Source: Salipiger sp. IMCC34102
GTDB lineage: Bacteria; Pseudomonadota; Alphaproteobacteria; Rhodobacterales; Rhodobacteraceae
Direction: 5' to 3'
DNA: 64,000 nt
NCBI RefSeq assembly: GCF_004145405.1
Contig: NZ_SELQ01000001.1
Span: 62,001 to 126,000, forward strand
The notes below the pieces were generated by a model, which had not been told where the DNA came from, did no database searches, and saw only the letters and a list, made by a program, of their open reading frames with translations. This document shows positions 1,049 through 17,475 of the stretch, in pieces (the stretch's first letter is position 1; the number at the start of each line of letters is the position of its first letter). The position numbers were made by a program, and so were the translations under genes.

Positions 1049-2124
1049 CGGCTGTCCTTGAACTGGCCTATGGCATGCGCCACCCGGCGGCAGGCGCTTT
1101 CGTCGCCGACGGTGATCCGCAGGCAATGCGGAAACCCGTAGGACTTGGGATGCCGCACCACGATCCCCTGACTTTCCAGGTAGACGTTGCAGGCCAGCGC
1201 CTCGTCTTCCGAGGCAAAGCGGGCCAGGATGAAATTCGCGGTCGATGTGTCCGAGGGCACGCCCCGCTCCGCAAGGGCCGTCGACAGCCAGTCGCGCCAC
1301 CGGGCATTCTCGGCTCGGCATTTCTCGGTGTAGTCGGTGTCGCGCACCGCGGCCTCGGCGGCGGCAAGGGCGCCGCCCGAGAGGTTGAAAGGCCCCCGGA
1401 TGCGGTTGAGCACGTCGATCACTGCGCGCGGTCCGTAACCCCAGCCGATGCGCAAGCCCCCCAGCCCGTAGATCTTGGAAAAGGTGCGCGTCATGAAGAC
1501 GTTATCGCGCGCCTCGACCAGCGCGCGCCCCCCGTCGTAGCCTTCCGCGAACTCGGCGTAGGCGCCGTCCAGCACCAGCATCGCGCGCTCCGGCAACCCG
1601 GCGGCGAGGCGCGCGATCTCGGCCTGGCCGATCATCGTCGCGGTCGGATTGGCGGGGTTGGCGATATAGACCAGACGGGTCGCGTCCGTGCAGGCCGCGA
1701 GGATCGCATCCACGTCGATCACGCGCTCGCGCTCGGGCACCACGACCGGCGTGGCCCCGACAGCCAGCGCCACGATGCGGTAGATGGCAAAGCCGTGCTC
1801 GGTGTAGATCACCTCGTCGCCTGGGCCGGTGTAGGCCTGGGCCAGCAGGTGCAAAATTTCGTCCGAACCCACGCCGCAGATCACCCGGTCGGGGTCGACC
1901 GACCAGACATCCCCGATCGCGCGGCGCAGTCTTGCATGGTCGGTGACCGGATATCGGTGCAGGTCGTGGACCGCGCGGGCGTAGGCGTCCTTGGCCTTCG
2001 GCGAAGGCCCGTGGGGATTCTCGTTCGACGACAGCTTCAGGATATTCGTCATGCCCGCGACGGAACTCGCCCCGCCCTTATAGAGCGTGATGTCCATGAT
2101 CGACGGCTTCGGAGAGATGGTCAT
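1045..2124 (-). CDS. hisC: HisC-family aminotransferase (histidinol-phosphate / aromatic)
   Basis: A 359-aa fold-type I PLP aminotransferase. [11 protein letters not shown] near residue 35, NPANPT at 156-161 and the PLP lysine K217 in [15 protein letters not shown] are all present. The family transaminates histidinol phosphate, and many members also accept phenylalanine or tyrosine. The overlap with prephenate dehydrogenase, rather than with his genes, points to a role in aromatic amino acid synthesis; this is inferred from context. The ATG at 2124 was chosen because AAGGGA lies 8 bases before it; an in-frame ATG at 2148 has no better ribosome site. Confidence 0.88.
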
Positions 2125-2222
2125 GCGCGCGGTCCCTTGTGCCTGCACGTTCTAGCGAGGCGCGCGTGTCCTGACCAGTGACAAGCACGACATGATGCGG
2201 GCCTCGTGGGCGCCTTGCCGCC

Positions 2223-3635
2223 CTAGTTCGCCAGGGTGTTCTTGAGCGCCCAGGGCGTTTCGGGAAGCAGATCCTCCGGAAAATGCTCCGACCGGTTGTC
2301 GAGCGGCGTCCAACCCGTGTAATGCCCCTCGACCGGACCGAGGTAGGGCCGCTGCACCTCGAGGCAGCGGGCGTGGTCCATCTCGTCGGTCTCGACGATG
2401 CCCGCCTGGGGATTCTCGAGCGCCCAGACCATCCCGGCGAGCACGGCCGAGGTGACCTGCAGACCGGTCGCGTTCTGGTAGGGCGCCAGCTTGCGCGCCT
2501 CTGCGTTCGACAGGCGACTGCCGTACCACAGGGCGTTCTTGTCGTGCCCGTAGAGCAGCACGCCCAGCTCGTCGATGCCGTCGACGATCTCGTCCACGTC
2601 GAGGATCTCGTGCGTCTCCTGGACCTTGCCGCTGCCGAACATCTCGTGCAGCGACAGCACCGCATCGTCGCTGGGGTGATAGGCGTAGTGACAGGTGGGC
2701 CGGTAGTCCGGCGCATGGGCAGGACCCACGGTGTAGTAATCCGCGATGGACACGCTCTCGTTATGGGTCACGAGGTAGCCGAACTGCGGACCCGGCGTCG
2801 GGCACCAGGTCCGCACCCGCGTCGCGGCCCCCGGCCGGTCGAGCCAGATCGCCGACTGGCAGCCGGTGTCGTGCCGGTGGCCGTTCTCGGGGAACCAGGG
2901 CTCGAAGGTGCCCCACCCCAGCTCGGCGGGCTGGAACCCTTCCGAGATGAAGCCTTCCACCGACCAGGTGTTGACGAAGGTGCCGCGCGGACGCGGCAGG
3001 CGGCGCGCCTGGGTGTCGCGTTCGGCGATATGCACGCCCTGGACGCCCAGCGATTGCATCAACCTGGCCCAGCCGTCGCGGTCCGTCGGCGCGGGATCGT
3101 CACGGCCGAGGTCGGCGGCCAGTTTCATCAAGCCTTCCTTCACGAACCAGCTTACCATGCCGGGATTGGCCCCGCAGCAGGACACGGCCGTCGGCCCGCC
3201 GGGGTTCGCCGCGGCCTCTTCGCGCACCGTCTCGCGCAGGGCGTAGTTCGTGCGCGCGGCATTGTCGGCCGTGTCGAAATAGAACCCGGCCCAGGGTTCG
3301 ACCACCGTGTCGATGTAGAGCGCGCCCAGCTCGCGACAGAGCCGCATGATCTCCAGCGAAGAGGTATCGACCGAAAGGTTCACGCAGAACCCGCCGCCCC
3401 CCAGCAGGTCCGACAGGACCTCGCGATAATTCTCCGGGGTCAGCGCGACTTGCAGGTGTCGATGCCCGTGTTGAGCCAGGAAGGTATGGGTCGCGGGATC
3501 GGGATCGATCACCACCAGCTTGTCCGCGTCGTACTCGAAATGGCGTTCGATCAACGGCAGCGTGCCCTTGCCGATGGATCCGAAGCCGATGAGCACGACG
3601 GCCCCTTCGATGCGACCGTAAACGGGATGAGACAT
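2223..3635 (-). CDS. hss: Homospermidine synthase
   Basis: A 470-aa NAD-dependent enzyme that joins putrescine units (or spermidine and putrescine) to make sym-homospermidine, a common alphaproteobacterial polyamine. The N-terminal Rossmann motif GFGSIGKG at residues 17-24 is of the saccharopine dehydrogenase-like type. SCCGANPGMVSWFV and SEGFQPAELGWGT are characteristic of bacterial homospermidine synthases, and the length is normal. The start ATG at 3635 follows a strong GGAGGAAG site; an earlier in-frame start at 3653 lies upstream of that site and was rejected. It stands alone between rpsD and hisC. Confidence 0.93.
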   Translation of the reverse strand: MSHPVYGRIEGAVVLIGFGSIGKGTLPLIERHFEYDADKLVVIDPDPATHTFLAQHGHRHLQVALTPENYREVLSDLLGGGGFCVNLSVDTSSLEIMRLCRELGALYIDTVVEPWAGFYFDTADNAARTNYALRETVREEAAANPGGPTAVSCCGANPGMVSWFVKEGLMKLAADLGRDDPAPTDRDGWARLMQSLGVQGVHIAERDTQARRLPRPRGTFVNTWSVEGFISEGFQPAELGWGTFEPWFPENGHRHDTGCQSAIWLDRPGAATRVRTWCPTPGPQFGYLVTHNESVSIADYYTVGPAHAPDYRPTCHYAYHPSDDAVLSLHEMFGSGKVQETHEILDVDEIVDGIDELGVLLYGHDKNALWYGSRLSNAEARKLAPYQNATGLQVTSAVLAGMVWALENPQAGIVETDEMDHARCLEVQRPYLGPVEGHYTGWTPLDNRSEHFPEDLLPETPWALKNTLAN

Positions 3636-13147: not shown

Positions 13148-13205
13148 CATTATCCTCCCAGATAAATCTCGATTGGCCCGACCGGATCGGGCGGCGTTCG
13201 AATTT

Positions 13206-13231
13206 CGCATGGTCATGATCCGAACCATGCG
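13206..13231 (-). promoter_or_regulatory. Inverted repeat, possible operator of the agl operon
   Basis: A perfect 8-base inverted repeat CGCATGGT-N10-ACCATGCG lies about 60 bases before aglE, just downstream of a candidate promoter. The placement suits a repressor site; the regulator is not in the window. Confidence 0.45.
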
Positions 13232-13247
13232 ACATCGACTGATAAAT

Positions 13248-13275
13248 AGCCTAGCGAGAAACGCACACGAGGCAA
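13248..13275 (-). promoter_or_regulatory. Candidate promoter of the agl operon
   Basis: TTGCCT (13275-13270), 16 bases, TAGGCT (13253-13248) on the minus strand. Transcription would start near 13241, immediately before the inverted repeat at 13206-13231. The match to sigma70 consensus is moderate. Confidence 0.35.
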
Positions 13276-13510
13276 CCGTCGTCTTCGGTGTTACGATCTG
13301 GAAACACGCGTATTTTTAAGGCAACCGCCGCGCTTCCATCCCCGAATTTCGGAAACCGTCGTCGATGCTGCACTGCGGCGCGGCCTGCGCAAGGATCCGC
13401 TGCCAACTGCGGGCGCAGGAACCGGAAACCGCATGCCGAGGCACTCCTGAACGCCCCACTCATGCCGCCGCTCGACAGCTTATCCTTGGCGCGCGATTTG
13501 ACGCAGACCC

Positions 13511-13539
13511 TTGCCGGTCAACGCCTGCGAACATACCAT
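13511..13539 (+). promoter_or_regulatory. Candidate promoter of the radical SAM-udgX operon
   Basis: TTGCCG, 17 bases, then TACCAT. The -10 lies inside the LexA box at 13529-13543, and the predicted start of transcription falls at or within a base or two of the ATG at 13546, which would make the mRNA leaderless. Confidence 0.45.
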
Positions 13540-13543
13540 GAAC
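13529..13543 (+). promoter_or_regulatory. SOS box (LexA operator)
   Basis: GAAC-ATACCAT-GAAC is a perfect match to GAAC-N7-GAAC, the direct-repeat LexA operator known in Rhodobacter and other alphaproteobacteria. It overlaps the candidate -10 and ends 2 bases before the first ATG of the radical SAM gene, where bound LexA would block RNA polymerase. Confidence 0.8.
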
Positions 13544-13545
13544 CT

Positions 13546-14775
13546 ATGATGTCACTGAACCGAAAACTCGCGATTCTCTCGGATGCGGCACGCTACGATG
13601 CGTCCTGCGCCTCTTCCGGCACGACCCGTCGCGACAGCCGCGACGGCAAGGGGTTGGGCAGCACCGAAGGATCGGGCATCTGCCATGCCTATGCCCCGGA
13701 CGGGCGCTGCATCAGTCTGCTGAAGATCCTGATGACGAACTTCTGCATCTACGACTGCGCCTATTGCGTGAACCGCGTGTCGTCCAACGTCGAACGCGCG
13801 CGCTTTTCCGTGGACGAGGTCGTGCAACTTACGCTCGAGTTCTATCGACGCAACTACATCGAGGGGCTGTTCCTGTCCTCCGGCGTGGTCCGGAACCCCG
13901 ACGACACGATGGAGCAGATGGTCCGCATCGCGCGACGCCTGCGCGAAGAGGAACACTTTCGCGGTTACATCCACCTCAAGACGATACCCGACGCCTCTCC
14001 CGCCCTGATCGAAGAGGCGGGACTTCACGCCGATCGTCTATCGATCAACGTGGAACTGCCGACCGACAAGGCGGTGCAGGCCTTCGCGCCGGAAAAGAAT
14101 CCCGAAACGATCCGCGGCGCCATGGGCAACGTGCGGACCCATCGCGCGGCCTCGAAGGAGCGCAGCCACACGGGCAAACGGCCCCCGAAGTTCGCGCCCG
14201 CCGGGCAATCGACGCAGATGATCGTGGGCGCGGACGGGGCAACGGATGCCACGATCCTGACCCGCTCCACCGGGCTTTACGAGGATTACAAGCTGCGGCG
14301 CGTCTACTACTCGGCCTTCTCGCCGATCCCCGACGCGACCGCGAAACTGCCGCTGGTGAAACCGCCCCTGATGCGCGAACACCGGCTCTACCAGGCCGAT
14401 TGGCTGATGCGGTTCTATGGCTTCAACGTCGGGGAAATCACCTCGACCGCCGCGGACGGCAACCTTGATCTGGATATCGACCCCAAGCTCGCCTGGGCCT
14501 TGCGCAACCGCGATCAGTTTCCGGTGGACGTGAACCGCGCGCCGCGCGAGCTTCTGCTGCGCGTGCCCGGCTTCGGGACCAAGACGGTGGGGCGCATCCT
14601 GACCACGCGGCGTCATCGCAGCCTGCGCTACGACGACCTGCTGCGGCTCGGCGCCTCGCTGAAGAAGGCGCAGGCCTTCGTCACCTGCGCGGATTGGACA
14701 CCCGGCGGCCTGACCGACAGCGCGAACCTGCGCGCGCGTTTCGCCCCGCCACCGGAACAACTGTCGCTTTTCTGA
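13546..14775 (+). CDS. Putative DNA modification/repair radical SAM protein
   Basis: A 409-aa radical SAM enzyme of the group described as 'putative DNA modification/repair radical SAM protein' (TIGR03916 type), linked in the literature to UdgX. The cluster-binding motif CIYDCAYC gives C67, C71 and C74 for the 4Fe-4S cluster. The C-terminus has a helix-hairpin-helix DNA-binding segment (APRELLLRVPGFGTKTVGRIL). The reaction is unknown. ATG 13546 or the adjacent 13549 begins the conserved N-terminus (MSLNRKLAILSDAARYDASC). Neither has a ribosome site, but an SOS box and -10 sit directly before them. The frame stays open upstream to 13288 without conserved residues. The stop overlaps the UdgX start as TGATG. 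Confidence 0.9.
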   Translation: MMSLNRKLAILSDAARYDASCASSGTTRRDSRDGKGLGSTEGSGICHAYAPDGRCISLLKILMTNFCIYDCAYCVNRVSSNVERARFSVDEVVQLTLEFYRRNYIEGLFLSSGVVRNPDDTMEQMVRIARRLREEEHFRGYIHLKTIPDASPALIEEAGLHADRLSINVELPTDKAVQAFAPEKNPETIRGAMGNVRTHRAASKERSHTGKRPPKFAPAGQSTQMIVGADGATDATILTRSTGLYEDYKLRRVYYSAFSPIPDATAKLPLVKPPLMREHRLYQADWLMRFYGFNVGEITSTAADGNLDLDIDPKLAWALRNRDQFPVDVNRAPRELLLRVPGFGTKTVGRILTTRRHRSLRYDDLLRLGASLKKAQAFVTCADWTPGGLTDSANLRARFAPPPEQLSLF

Positions 14776-16202
14776 TGCACACCATTCCCCTGCCCCGCAT
14801 CGGAACGTGGGAGGCTTGGCGCACCGCCGCCCGCGCCTGCCTTGCCGCCCGCATCCCGCCGGAGGACATCCTGTGGGACTTCGCCGGCAGCGAAGCGGAG
14901 CTTTTCGCAACCGACCTGCCTGCCCCCACCGTCCGCGGCACGGTCAAGGTGCCCGCCGACTTCGTCGACATGGCGAAATGGGTCGTCTGGCACGCGGACC
15001 CGCAACGCTTCGCGCGGCTCTACGCGCTGTTGTGGCGGCTTCGGCTTGACAAGGGAGTGATGTCGGACCGCGCCGACCCTGACCTCGCCAAGCTGCGGCA
15101 GATGGAAAAGGCGGTGCACCGGTGCAAGCACAAGATGCGGGCCTTCGTGCGGTTCCGCGATCTGCGCACCGGGGGGCCGCGCCGCAGCTTTGCCGCCTGG
15201 TTCGAACCGACGCACCATACGGTCGAACCCAATGCCCCCTTCTTCGCCCGTCGCTTCGCGGACATGGACTGGATGATCGTCACCCCCGACATCACCGCGC
15301 GTTTCACGGACGGCACGCTGACGTTCCACGAAGGCCAGCCGAAGCCGGACCTGCCCGACGACGCGACCGAAGAGCTTTGGGGGACCTACTTCAAGAACAT
15401 CTTCAACCCCGCCCGGCTGAAGGTGAAGGCGATGACCGCCGAGATGCCCAAGAAATACTGGAAGAACATGCCCGAAGCGCAGCACATCCCCGACCTCATC
15501 GCCCATGCGGAGGCCCGCGTGCGCGACATGGCGGAGGCGGGCCCCACCCTCGCCCCCGCGCGCGTGGCCAAGATCCGTGCCCAACTGGCCGAGACGCCGC
15601 AACCCGCGTCATGGAACCTGCTGGACGCCGATCTGCACAATTGCACCCGTTGCCCGCTTCATGGTCCCGCGACGCAGGTGGTGCCGGGCACCGGTCCGCG
15701 CGATGCGGCGCTGATGATCGTCGGCGAACAACCCGGCGATGCGGAGGACCTGGAAGGCCTGCCCTTCGTCGGTCCCGCCGGCCAGCTGTTCGACCGTCTC
15801 GCGGCGCAGGCGGGACTGGACCGCAAGACCGCCTTCGTCACCAACGCCGTCAAGCACTTCAAGTTCGAGCAGCGCGGCAAGCGGCGTATTCACCAGAACC
15901 CCAATACCTCGGAGATCGAGCATTGCCGCTTCTGGGTCGAGTCCGAGATCAAGCTGGTGAAACCGAAGCTGATCCTCGCCATGGGCGGGACCGCGGCGGA
16001 AAGTCTGACGGGGACGCGCAAGGGGATTCTGAAACGGCGCGGCCAGATCGAGGACACGCCCCACGGCCCAGTCTTTCTGACGGTCCACCCCTCCTACCTG
16101 CTACGCCTGCCCGACCACGCCCGCGAGGAAGCCGAGCAAGCCTTCCGCGCCGACCTCTCCGGCGCCGTGCAAGCCCTCACCCTCCTTTCGCACCCCGCTT
16201 GA
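14775..16202 (+). CDS. udgX: UdgX-family uracil-DNA binding protein with N-terminal DNA-metabolism domain
   Basis: A 475-aa two-domain protein. Residues 1 to about 270 are the 'probable DNA metabolism' domain (TIGR03915/DUF4130 type) that accompanies the radical SAM partner. From about 280 on it is a family-4-like uracil-DNA glycosylase fold: candidate Fe-S cysteines C290, C293 and C384, active-site motif GEQPGDAEDLEGLPFVGPAG at 318-337, and HPS near 438-440. The KRRIH loop at 369-373 marks UdgX. In Mycobacterium smegmatis UdgX the loop His makes a covalent bond with DNA at uracil sites, so H373 should do the same. The start is fixed by TGATG overlap with the upstream gene. Confidence 0.92.
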   Translation: MHTIPLPRIGTWEAWRTAARACLAARIPPEDILWDFAGSEAELFATDLPAPTVRGTVKVPADFVDMAKWVVWHADPQRFARLYALLWRLRLDKGVMSDRADPDLAKLRQMEKAVHRCKHKMRAFVRFRDLRTGGPRRSFAAWFEPTHHTVEPNAPFFARRFADMDWMIVTPDITARFTDGTLTFHEGQPKPDLPDDATEELWGTYFKNIFNPARLKVKAMTAEMPKKYWKNMPEAQHIPDLIAHAEARVRDMAEAGPTLAPARVAKIRAQLAETPQPASWNLLDADLHNCTRCPLHGPATQVVPGTGPRDAALMIVGEQPGDAEDLEGLPFVGPAGQLFDRLAAQAGLDRKTAFVTNAVKHFKFEQRGKRRIHQNPNTSEIEHCRFWVESEIKLVKPKLILAMGGTAAESLTGTRKGILKRRGQIEDTPHGPVFLTVHPSYLLRLPDHAREEAEQAFRADLSGAVQALTLLSHPA

Positions 16203-16217
16203 GCGGCGCGCCGCGAT

Positions 16218-16253
16218 CCCCTTCTTCTGGCTCTAAATATCCCGGGGGAGGCG
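16218..16253 (-). repeat. Dispersed intergenic element, copy 2
   Basis: Read on the minus strand this is CCTCC-CCC-GGGA, ATATTTA, GCCAGA-A-GAA, matching the element at 4668-4703 in order and spacing. It begins 15 bases after the udgX stop. Confidence 0.5.
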
Positions 16254-16267
16254 CGGCCTGCCGCGAC

Positions 16268-16282
16268 GGGGGCAGAGCCCCC
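16268..16282. terminator. Short GC hairpin after udgX
   Basis: GGGGGC-AGA-GCCCCC, a 6-pair stem with a 3-base loop and no T run. Part of a 175-base non-coding stretch between convergent genes. Confidence 0.35.
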
Positions 16283-16311
16283 AGACCTCGTCAGACACCC
16301 CGCGCGCGCTG

Positions 16312-16337
16312 GAAGACTTTTCGGCCGGAAAGTCTTC
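16312..16337. repeat. Near-perfect 26-base palindrome
   Basis: GAAGACTTT and AAAGTCTTC arms (16312-16320, 16329-16337) surround TCGGCCGG. Because the centre is also nearly self-complementary, the whole 26 bases can pair. It looks like a mobile-module type intergenic repeat rather than a terminator. Confidence 0.6.
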
Positions 16338-16344
16338 GCCACGG

Positions 16345-16366
16345 AAAACTATTCTAGAATAGTTTT
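16345..16366. terminator. Perfect palindrome between convergent udgX and ychF
   Basis: AAAACTATTCT followed directly by AGAATAGTTTT, a perfect 22-base palindrome ending in a T run on the plus strand. It lies 11 bases beyond the ychF stop and can end transcription from both sides, although the AT-rich stem is weak. Confidence 0.5.
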
Positions 16367-16377
16367 TGCTCCCACGC

Positions 16378-17475
16378 TCAGGTGTTGAACAGGAAATGTA
16401 GAACATCGCCGTCCTTGACGGTGTAGCCCTTGCCTTCCGCGCGCATCTTGCCCGCTTCCTTCGCGGGCTGCTCGCCGCCCAGGGTCACGAAATCGTCGTA
16501 GGCGATGGTCTCGGCCCGGATGAACCCGCGCTCGAAATCACCGTGGATGACGCCGGCGGCCTTGGGCGCCGAGGTCCCTTCTGAGATCGTCCAGGCCCGC
16601 GCTTCCTTCGGCCCGACGGTGAAGTAGGTCTGCAACTTCAACAAGGCGTAGCCCGCGCGGATCAACCGGTCGAGACCGGGTTCTTCCAGCCCCATCTCGC
16701 CCAGGAACATCTCTGCTTCCTCGGCGTCGAGCTGGCTGATCTCCTCCTCGATCCGGGCCGAGATCACCACGTGGGAATTTCCTTCCGCCGCGGCCATTTC
16801 GGCGACGCGCGCGGACTGGCTGTTGCCCGCCCCCGCGCTTTCTTCCTCGACGTTGCAGACGTAGAGCACCGGCTTGGTCGTCAAAAGCTGCAGCATCCGC
16901 CAGGCCTTGGCGTCGTCGGCGTCCACCTCGACCATTCGGGCGGGTTTGCCGTCCTCCAGCGCCGCCTGTGCGGCCTTGAGCAGACGTTCCTGCTGCACTG
17001 CCTCCTTGTCGCCACCGCGCACCTTGCGCGTGAGACCGGCCAGGCGCTTCTCGATGCTTTCGAGGTCGGCCAGCATCAGCTCTGTCTCGATCACGCTGGC
17101 GTCCTCGACCGGATCGACCCGGCCTTCGACGTGAGTGATGTCGGGATCCTCGAAGCAGCGCAGCACATGGGCGATGGCATCGCATTCGCGGATGTTGGCC
17201 AGGAACTGGTTGCCCAGCCCCTCGCCTTTCGAGGCGCCTTTCACGAGGCCCGCGATATCGACGAAGGTCATGCGCGTCGGGATGATGTTCTGCGACTTCG
17301 CGATCCCCGCGAGGGTATTCAGCCGCGCGTCGGGCACGGCCACGTCGCCGACGTTCGGCTCGATGGTGCAGAACGGAAAGTTCGCGGCCTGGGCGGCCGC
17401 GGTACGCGTCAGCGCGTTGAACAGGGTGGACTTGCCGACGTTCGGCAGACCCACGATTCCCATCTTGAAGCCCAT
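16378..17475 (-). CDS. ychF: YchF/Obg-like ribosome-binding ATPase
   Basis: A 365-aa OLA1/YchF P-loop NTPase. G1 GLPNVGKST is at residues 9-17, G3 is in VDIAGLVKGASKGEGLGN, followed by a coiled-coil insertion and a C-terminal TGS domain (VKDGDVLHFLFNT). YchF proteins bind ribosomes and prefer ATP. The length is normal. It is convergent with udgX across a repeat-rich spacer and followed upstream by a small membrane protein gene on the same strand. Confidence 0.96.
   Translation of the reverse strand: MGFKMGIVGLPNVGKSTLFNALTRTAAAQAANFPFCTIEPNVGDVAVPDARLNTLAGIAKSQNIIPTRMTFVDIAGLVKGASKGEGLGNQFLANIRECDAIAHVLRCFEDPDITHVEGRVDPVEDASVIETELMLADLESIEKRLAGLTRKVRGGDKEAVQQERLLKAAQAALEDGKPARMVEVDADDAKAWRMLQLLTTKPVLYVCNVEEESAGAGNSQSARVAEMAAAEGNSHVVISARIEEEISQLDAEEAEMFLGEMGLEEPGLDRLIRAGYALLKLQTYFTVGPKEARAWTISEGTSAPKAAGVIHGDFERGFIRAETIAYDDFVTLGGEQPAKEAGKMRAEGKGYTVKDGDVLHFLFNT

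Follow-up and report, generated by a model that had tools for sequence, protein, structure and literature searches.

Two-gene, SOS-controlled operons that pair a uracil-DNA glycosylase (UDG) with a COG4277 protein are already described: the available text of PMC8565304 states such an operon for Bacteroidetes, cites it for Verrucomicrobia and Alphaproteobacteria, and calls the pair a putative UDG-based repair system. The covalent adduct formed by UdgX is treated in the part of PMC10359453 consulted here. In the accessible portion of PMC3765255, DUF4130-associated proteins are presented as SplB-like photolyases that might modify thymines, and an excerpt of PMC9380542 reports a LexA-bound radical S-adenosylmethionine (SAM) gene of unsettled identity in Streptomyces, whereas the available portions of PMC13384398 and PMC1839093 do not mention the present gene pair. 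Term look-ups in PMC12700426 and PMC10776899 came up empty. The locus analyzed here lies in a window of 64,000 nucleotides (nt) of Salipiger sp. IMCC34102 (contig NZ_SELQ01000001.1, positions 62,001 to 126,000), the whole stretch of DNA under study, and comprises a radical SAM gene followed by a gene for a DUF4130-UdgX fusion. COG4277 is presumably the radical SAM family of this locus. By comparison across orthologues, the locus is genuine and conserved, an SOS-controlled repair operon of a kind already known, and we consider it likely that it serves clamp-associated processing of DNA lesions. Its features are as follows.

13511..13516, forward strand: putative -35 element TTGCCG, by its sequence; the spacing of the TTG is kept in orthologues
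13529..13543, forward strand: putative LexA operator GAACATACCATGAAC, GAAC-N7-GAAC (GTTC-N7-GTTC on the other strand)
13534..13539, forward strand: putative -10 element TACCAT, contained in the operator; 6 nt separate it from the ATG
13546..14775, forward strand: radical SAM gene, 409 amino acids, TIGR03916 (rSAM_link_UDG)
14758..14772, forward strand: QLSLF, predicted beta-sliding-clamp binding motif, C-terminus of the radical SAM protein
14775..16202, forward strand: DUF4130 (TIGR03915) and UdgX (TIGR03914) fusion gene, 475 amino acids, by profile matches
14775..15479, forward strand: DUF4130 domain, about residues 1-235 of the fusion protein
15606..16157, forward strand: UdgX domain, about residues 278-461, with GEQPG, the KRRIH R-loop and the HPS motif

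The LexA operator and the start of the first gene

The GAAC-N7-GAAC motif is common by chance, with 3 occurrences in the window against 2.16 expected and 85 in the 3.58-Mb genome against 73 for a reversed control, and it was therefore tested by comparison. A search of orthologous loci for the box, as an earlier note on this DNA had proposed, used a merged set, freed of duplicate start regions, of 204 unique alphaproteobacterial orthologues whose upstream sequence covers 60 nt or more. The exact box occurs within -120..+45 of the start in 199 of the 204, and same-size control windows contain it in 0/204 (three windows), 0/203 (two) and 0/152 (one). A chance origin, which holds for the motif alone, is ruled out by this comparison, and the position of the box at the radical SAM start is, as judged from the orthologues, not due to chance.

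The component samples give the same picture. In the 91-locus set, which combines 8 further relatives with 83 of the 84 genomes from the family (G178, whose gene is split, is not included), 88 loci carry the box in -250..+45; of the other three, L035 is cut by the contig end, and L097 and L111 have one-mismatch versions as read by eye. Of 40 further alphaproteobacterial loci, scanned with a pattern that also permits a GATC half-site, 39 carry it; seven own-family loci (L112, L113, L143, L144, L146, L147 and L149) were omitted from this set. The 80 named loci, the top 80 among at least 589 confirmed matches and not a random sample, contain the box in 76 cases, and two of the four misses are not alphaproteobacteria (Stenotrophomonas, Acidovorax). 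L118 repeats L014, and L192 and L194 look near-identical; all were kept in the 40-locus, 155-protein and 152-locus counts. The radical SAM gene itself is patchily distributed, with orthologues in 14 of 61 relatives and 84 of 394 genomes of the family at E 0.001; above the model cut-off, 18 of the 289 class genomes and 53 of the 299 phylum genomes have it, and these four samples overlap. Among laboratory alphaproteobacteria, Phaeobacter inhibens and Paracoccus denitrificans have the operon.

Outside the class, the operator changes with the lineage. Among 19 proteobacterial loci outside Alphaproteobacteria (2 named and 17 presumed beta/gamma), CTG-N10-CAG lies within 100 nt of the start in 16 and the strict CTGT-N8-ACAG, the SOS box of E. 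coli in the available text of PMC8565304, in 12, with the alpha box in 0; conversely, the strict gamma box is found in the start window of 1 of the 204 alphaproteobacterial loci. The non-proteobacterial loci are few and were read by eye, with L188 (Bacteroides) and L191 (Gemmatirosa) standing outside the own-lineage motif test. In L189 (Pusillibacter, Clostridia), GAACAATTGTTC and GAACAAAAGTTC precede a short reading frame ahead of the gene, and L190 (Acetoanaerobium) and L195 (a gut phage record) have a one-mismatch GAAC-N4-GTTC; the B. subtilis box is CGAACN4GTTCG (Table 1 of PMC9578287, seen in part). As a separate observation, the upstream regions of L160 and L264 (Stenotrophomonas) are nearly identical and have in common an inverted repeat, GCGGTCTCAT-CCA-ATGAGACCGC, which lies some 20-45 bases ahead of the start of the radical SAM gene and is perhaps a different operator.

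Within this genome, the alpha box also stands ahead of lexA, recA, uvrA and a UvrD/PcrA-type helicase gene, as well as ahead of genes with weak, below-cut-off matches to ImuA and Y-family polymerases; it is the lineage's own operator, common to lexA and recA. The distance from the box to the presumed start is 34 nt at lexA, 66 at uvrA, 42 at the helicase gene and 24 at a gene that we take to be DUF3072-like (it has no NCBIfam match), compared with 2 at the present locus. A further perfect SOS-like box (L016, 1994-2008) was seen in this genome 74 nt ahead of a DNA cytosine methyltransferase gene (2083-3036). Because of the comparison across orthologues, LexA/SOS control of the radical SAM-UdgX operon, which has been predicted from sequence throughout, is near certain.

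The long neighbouring minus-strand reading frame begins at 13228, leaving an intergenic stretch of about 317 base pairs (bp), and the box is therefore intergenic. It is followed by 2 bases (13544-13545), the ATG at 13546 and a second ATG at 13549. TTGCCG and TACCAT, separated by a 17-nt spacer, match 8 of the 12 bases of the sigma-70 consensus. Across orthologues, the first in-frame ATG downstream of the box, or else GTG or TTG, served as the start, so that the box-start spacing is a minimum. By this rule, the forward box ends 0-6 nt before the start codon in 143 of 180 unique loci, and exactly 2 nt before it in 84. Among these 143 near-box loci, 109 have a TTG beginning 16-20 nt ahead of the box (74 at exactly 18 nt), compared with 9, 11, 15 and 18 at four control offsets. 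The information content anchored on the box is 0.70-0.84 bit over the TTG, with the remainder of the upstream flank at or below 0.25 bit. The best -10-like hexamer most commonly ends at -7 (51/143), with a second peak at -12 (25/143); where the box lies 7-18 nt upstream, the commonest end is still -7 (12/30). Shine-Dalgarno-like 4-mers occur in 11 of the 143, against a shuffle mean of 8.6 (range 2-17).

At this locus, then, the candidate -10 lies 6 nt before a start codon that no Shine-Dalgarno sequence precedes. Given the fixed -35/box/ATG geometry and Shine-Dalgarno motifs at chance level, the leaderless reading is well supported, and a leaderless or nearly leaderless radical SAM mRNA is likely but unproven. 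Of what the earlier note had read here, the observation holds and the interpretation is partly supported: the box at 13529-13543 does end 2 bases before the start codon, it does overlap the candidate -10 (13534-13539), by eye no Shine-Dalgarno-like stretch lies ahead of the ATG, and SOS control finds strong support in the orthologues, in lineage-matched operators and in the same box at lexA, recA and uvrA. Its leaderless first cistron gains the -35/box/ATG geometry and the lack of Shine-Dalgarno motifs as support, but is not proven, and the box stands farther from the start in 51 of 199 loci.

The radical SAM protein and its partner

The window protein ends in EQLSLF, which contains a match to the beta-clamp consensus QL[S/D]LF (Dalrymple 2001, as quoted in the available part of PMC3716654) at an exposed terminus. 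In the last 32 residues of 155 complete orthologues, 139 have Q[LM]x[LFI][FLIW], 11 a hexapeptide form, 4 a relaxed form, and 1 ends in QLSLAI. The 80 named loci include 73 with the pentapeptide, 3 with the hexapeptide, which we take to be a clamp-motif type, and 1 with the relaxed form. In an alignment of 229 unique radical SAM sequences, the glutamine of the motif is aligned in all 229, behind a linker of variable length. The motif was found in 8 of 2606 internal windows of 32 residues and in 0 of 170 partner C-termini; among the C-termini of 140 reading frames in the window, the only match is the radical SAM protein itself. Nearly every orthologue is thus predicted to end in a sliding-clamp-binding motif. 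The divergent protein L191 3001-4263 (Gemmatirosa kalamazoonensis) has neither the extra cysteines described below nor a detected DUF4130 partner, yet carries QLSLW near its C-terminus.

The CxxxCxxC motif (C67/C71/C74) is present in 229/229 aligned sequences, and three additional cysteines, C21, C46 and C55, are conserved in 228/229. Therefore, an auxiliary Fe-S cluster held by C21/C46/C55 is suggested. A region at about residues 323-357 is presumably helix-hairpin-helix-like, a label given by eye, and matches of the protein to RuvA and ComEA were non-significant (E 0.43 to 0.68). No solved structure matched the protein by sequence below E 0.19; by predicted fold, the closest among the matches listed are lipoyl synthase, HydE and biotin synthase. 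NCBIfam returns only TIGR03916 for the protein, and spore photoproduct lyase is not among the 50 matches listed per fold comparison, which excludes nothing.

The radical SAM protein scores 590.6 bits against TIGR03916 (cut-off 343.5) and its partner 210 bits against TIGR03915 (cut-off 112.25); TIGR03916, TIGR03915 and TIGR03914 all exceed their own NCBIfam cut-offs at this locus. The score, the CxxxCxxC motif and the adjacent TIGR03915 partner place the protein in TIGR03916, labelled 'putative DNA modification/repair radical SAM protein'. The two genes are joined by a stop/start overlap, TGATG at 14773-14777, as the earlier note had read it. Its account of the gene content, a radical SAM gene with UdgX, is right in both components and incomplete in that the second protein is a DUF4130-UdgX fusion and UdgX is optional. 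A role in anti-phage defence was considered and set aside, as neither protein has a PADLOC match at E 0.001.

The UdgX domain matches PDB 6ajo at E 3.8e-46 and contains the GEQPG motif A, the R-loop histidine in KRRIH and the HPS motif B. UDG domains of the orthologues have GEQPG in 117 of 123, HPS in 112 and the R-loop histidine in 120; the last count combines 93 found by pattern with 27 read by eye from the other 30, L014 being unreadable. In L224 (Acetobacter) the R-loop histidine is lost (GRRIP) and in L180 the loop is expanded, so these two domains may not crosslink. DUF4130 is present in 147 of 152 loci and a UDG in 123, and 24 loci, including alpha-, beta- and gammaproteobacteria, Bacteroides and Clostridia, have the radical SAM and DUF4130 genes with no UDG found nearby. 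From this gene content, the core of the operon is the radical SAM protein plus DUF4130, and UdgX is an accessory module.

The predicted fold of DUF4130 weakly resembles DHH-type proteins (RecJ, Cdc45). Several fold comparisons lean this way; in one of them, most of rows 3-13 do so, below two top rows taken by an uncharacterised Helicobacter protein. As a RecJ/DHH relative, DUF4130 is a lead only, the RecJ profile scoring no better than unrelated controls; DHH and GGH motifs are absent from about the first 224 residues, which contain DPD (101) and DMD (163).

Some side observations concern the surroundings and the records. A perfect AT-rich inverted repeat, AAAACTATTCTAGAATAGTTTT, lies at 16345-16366, between the UdgX gene and the convergent next frame, and may be a two-way terminator; the promoter scan did not call it. 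On the contig L194 (Acinetobacter phage MD-2021a), glyS and glyQ accompany the radical SAM-DUF4130 pair; this record, although deposited as phage, looks like host chromosome. L192, the 3.66-Mb 'plasmid' pDETAB15, looks chromosomal.

A possible mechanism and its rivals

The operon would act in five steps. LexA bound to the box, which overlaps the -10 and abuts the start codon, would shut the promoter until DNA damage relieves it, and this step is near certain on the comparative evidence. RNA polymerase would then start at or a few bases from the ATG to give a leaderless or nearly leaderless radical SAM cistron, as the geometry supports well, and the TGATG overlap would couple translation of the second gene. 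The C-terminal QLSLF is predicted, from a nearly universal motif, to tether the radical SAM protein to the beta sliding clamp, with DNA contact predicted through the helix-hairpin-helix-like region. Hypothetically, SAM radical chemistry, possibly with the C21/C46/C55 cluster, would target, together with DUF4130, a damaged base or a crosslink, either at the replication fork or behind it. Finally, where present, UdgX would excise uracil and remain covalently on the abasic site as a cap, as its family suggests. Beyond this scheme, we tentatively propose, as a possibility that falls short of probable, a clamp-tethered radical SAM enzyme, equipped with an auxiliary Fe-S cluster, whose direct targets during the SOS response are DNA bases; DUF4130 would be its regular partner and UdgX an optional abasic cap, and together they would form a radical-based branch of fork repair distinct from SplB.

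Several observations weigh against this picture. The exact box is absent in 5 of the 204 orthologues (L097, L111, L114, L209 and L222), four of which have one-mismatch versions by eye, and none of the tested boxes was found at L160, L264 or L142. Of the 84 other genomic box sites, 20 were examined, picked by eye for AT-rich spacers; about 7 of them precede likely repair genes and most of the others look like chance, one lying inside the ribosomal protein S7 gene, so that the examined boxes are not a full regulon. The promoter scan (limit 9/12) called no promoter in 13200-16500, the hexamers of the locus matching at 8/12, and 14 of the 143 near-box loci have a further in-frame ATG within the box itself. 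Leaderless starts are not found throughout, since 51 of 199 loci place the start codon more than 6 nt away from the box, 14 of these 51 with Shine-Dalgarno-like motifs. Three of the 80 named loci have off-pattern tails (QFELF, QPRLL and QRSLF), and the region of the extra cysteines is modelled at a predicted local distance difference test score (pLDDT) below 50.

Some of these points would suit an operon under LexA control whose transcript, made from another promoter, has a short 5' leader of the conventional kind, with the box acting as roadblock or operator. The lack of a called consensus promoter fits it, as do the 51 of 199 loci with wider spacing and the 14 with Shine-Dalgarno-like motifs; we nevertheless find such a leader doubtful, since the -35 TTG keeps a fixed spacing to the box in 109/143, the flank outside this TTG does not exceed 0.25 bit, Shine-Dalgarno motifs stay at chance level, and the -10-like end remains commonest at -7 (12/30) where the box is 7-18 nt upstream. 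It is likewise unlikely that the locus is a uracil base-excision system in which the radical SAM protein and DUF4130 merely assist UdgX, for example by releasing the UdgX-DNA adduct. The covalent adduct (PMC10359453, in part), a UDG in 123/152 loci and the naming of the pair as a putative UDG-based repair system (PMC8565304, in part) point in that direction, but in 24/152 loci the radical SAM protein and DUF4130 are retained although no UDG was detected close by, and on that account the core activity does not seem to need UdgX.

The remaining two alternatives concern the radical SAM protein. That it reverses thymine lesions directly, in the manner of spore photoproduct lyase, appears quite improbable: the CxxxCxxC spacing and the SplB-like photolyase label given to DUF4130-associated proteins (PMC3765255, in part) agree with it, whereas NCBIfam gives only TIGR03916, the closest folds among the matches listed are lipoyl synthase, HydE and biotin synthase (the absence of the lyase from the lists being no proof), and there are three extra cysteines. 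We regard it as very unlikely that the QLSLF tail is a coincidental hydrophobic C-terminus and no clamp ligand; short motifs do recur by chance and 3/80 named loci are off pattern, but the glutamine is aligned in 229/229 behind a variable linker, and only 0/170 partner C-termini and 8/2606 internal windows match.

An SOS operon for clamp-associated lesion processing thus remains our preferred reading. The pair is defined by profiles and on record as SOS-regulated in several phyla, with no reaction assigned to it. The clamp tail, the cysteine set and the minimal core now lead to concrete tests, namely of the site of action (the clamp), of the cofactors to reconstitute and of species with a UdgX-free core. 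With its operator abutting the start codon, the locus is also a clean example of how LexA would control a message that is probably leaderless. The most useful additions, none of them in the earlier note, are the clamp-binding tail, the extra cysteines and UdgX as an accessory.

Comparison with known systems

Because the pairing and its SOS control are already in print in the available text of PMC8565304, they are known and not new. For the leaderless geometry, the clamp motif and the additional cysteines, our searches of an open-access library turned up no printed report. The operon of that paper has a UDG and COG4277 pair under SOS control, as here; as far as its available text goes, the start-abutting box, leaderless geometry, clamp motif, extra cysteines and DUF4130 core belong to the present locus only. 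The TIGR03916, TIGR03915 and TIGR03914 models describe putative DNA repair or uracil-DNA binding and assign no reaction to the radical SAM protein or to DUF4130.

The UdgX of Mycobacterium smegmatis (PDB 6ajo and others; species partly after PMC10359453) has the GEQPG, KRRIH R-loop and HPS motifs found here, whereas in the present locus the domain is C-terminal, fused to DUF4130 and encoded in an operon with a radical SAM gene. SplB is a DNA-repair radical SAM protein, as the product of this operon is predicted to be, and is SOS-regulated in several species (PMC8565304, in part); the extra cysteines and the clamp motif set our protein apart, and membership in one family with SplB is not established. 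UmuC carries the clamp motif QLNLF, under the consensus QL[S/D]LF (PMC3716654, in part), comparable to QLSLF here; the present protein, however, is a radical SAM enzyme and not a polymerase, and its motif is C-terminal, whereas that of UmuC is internal.

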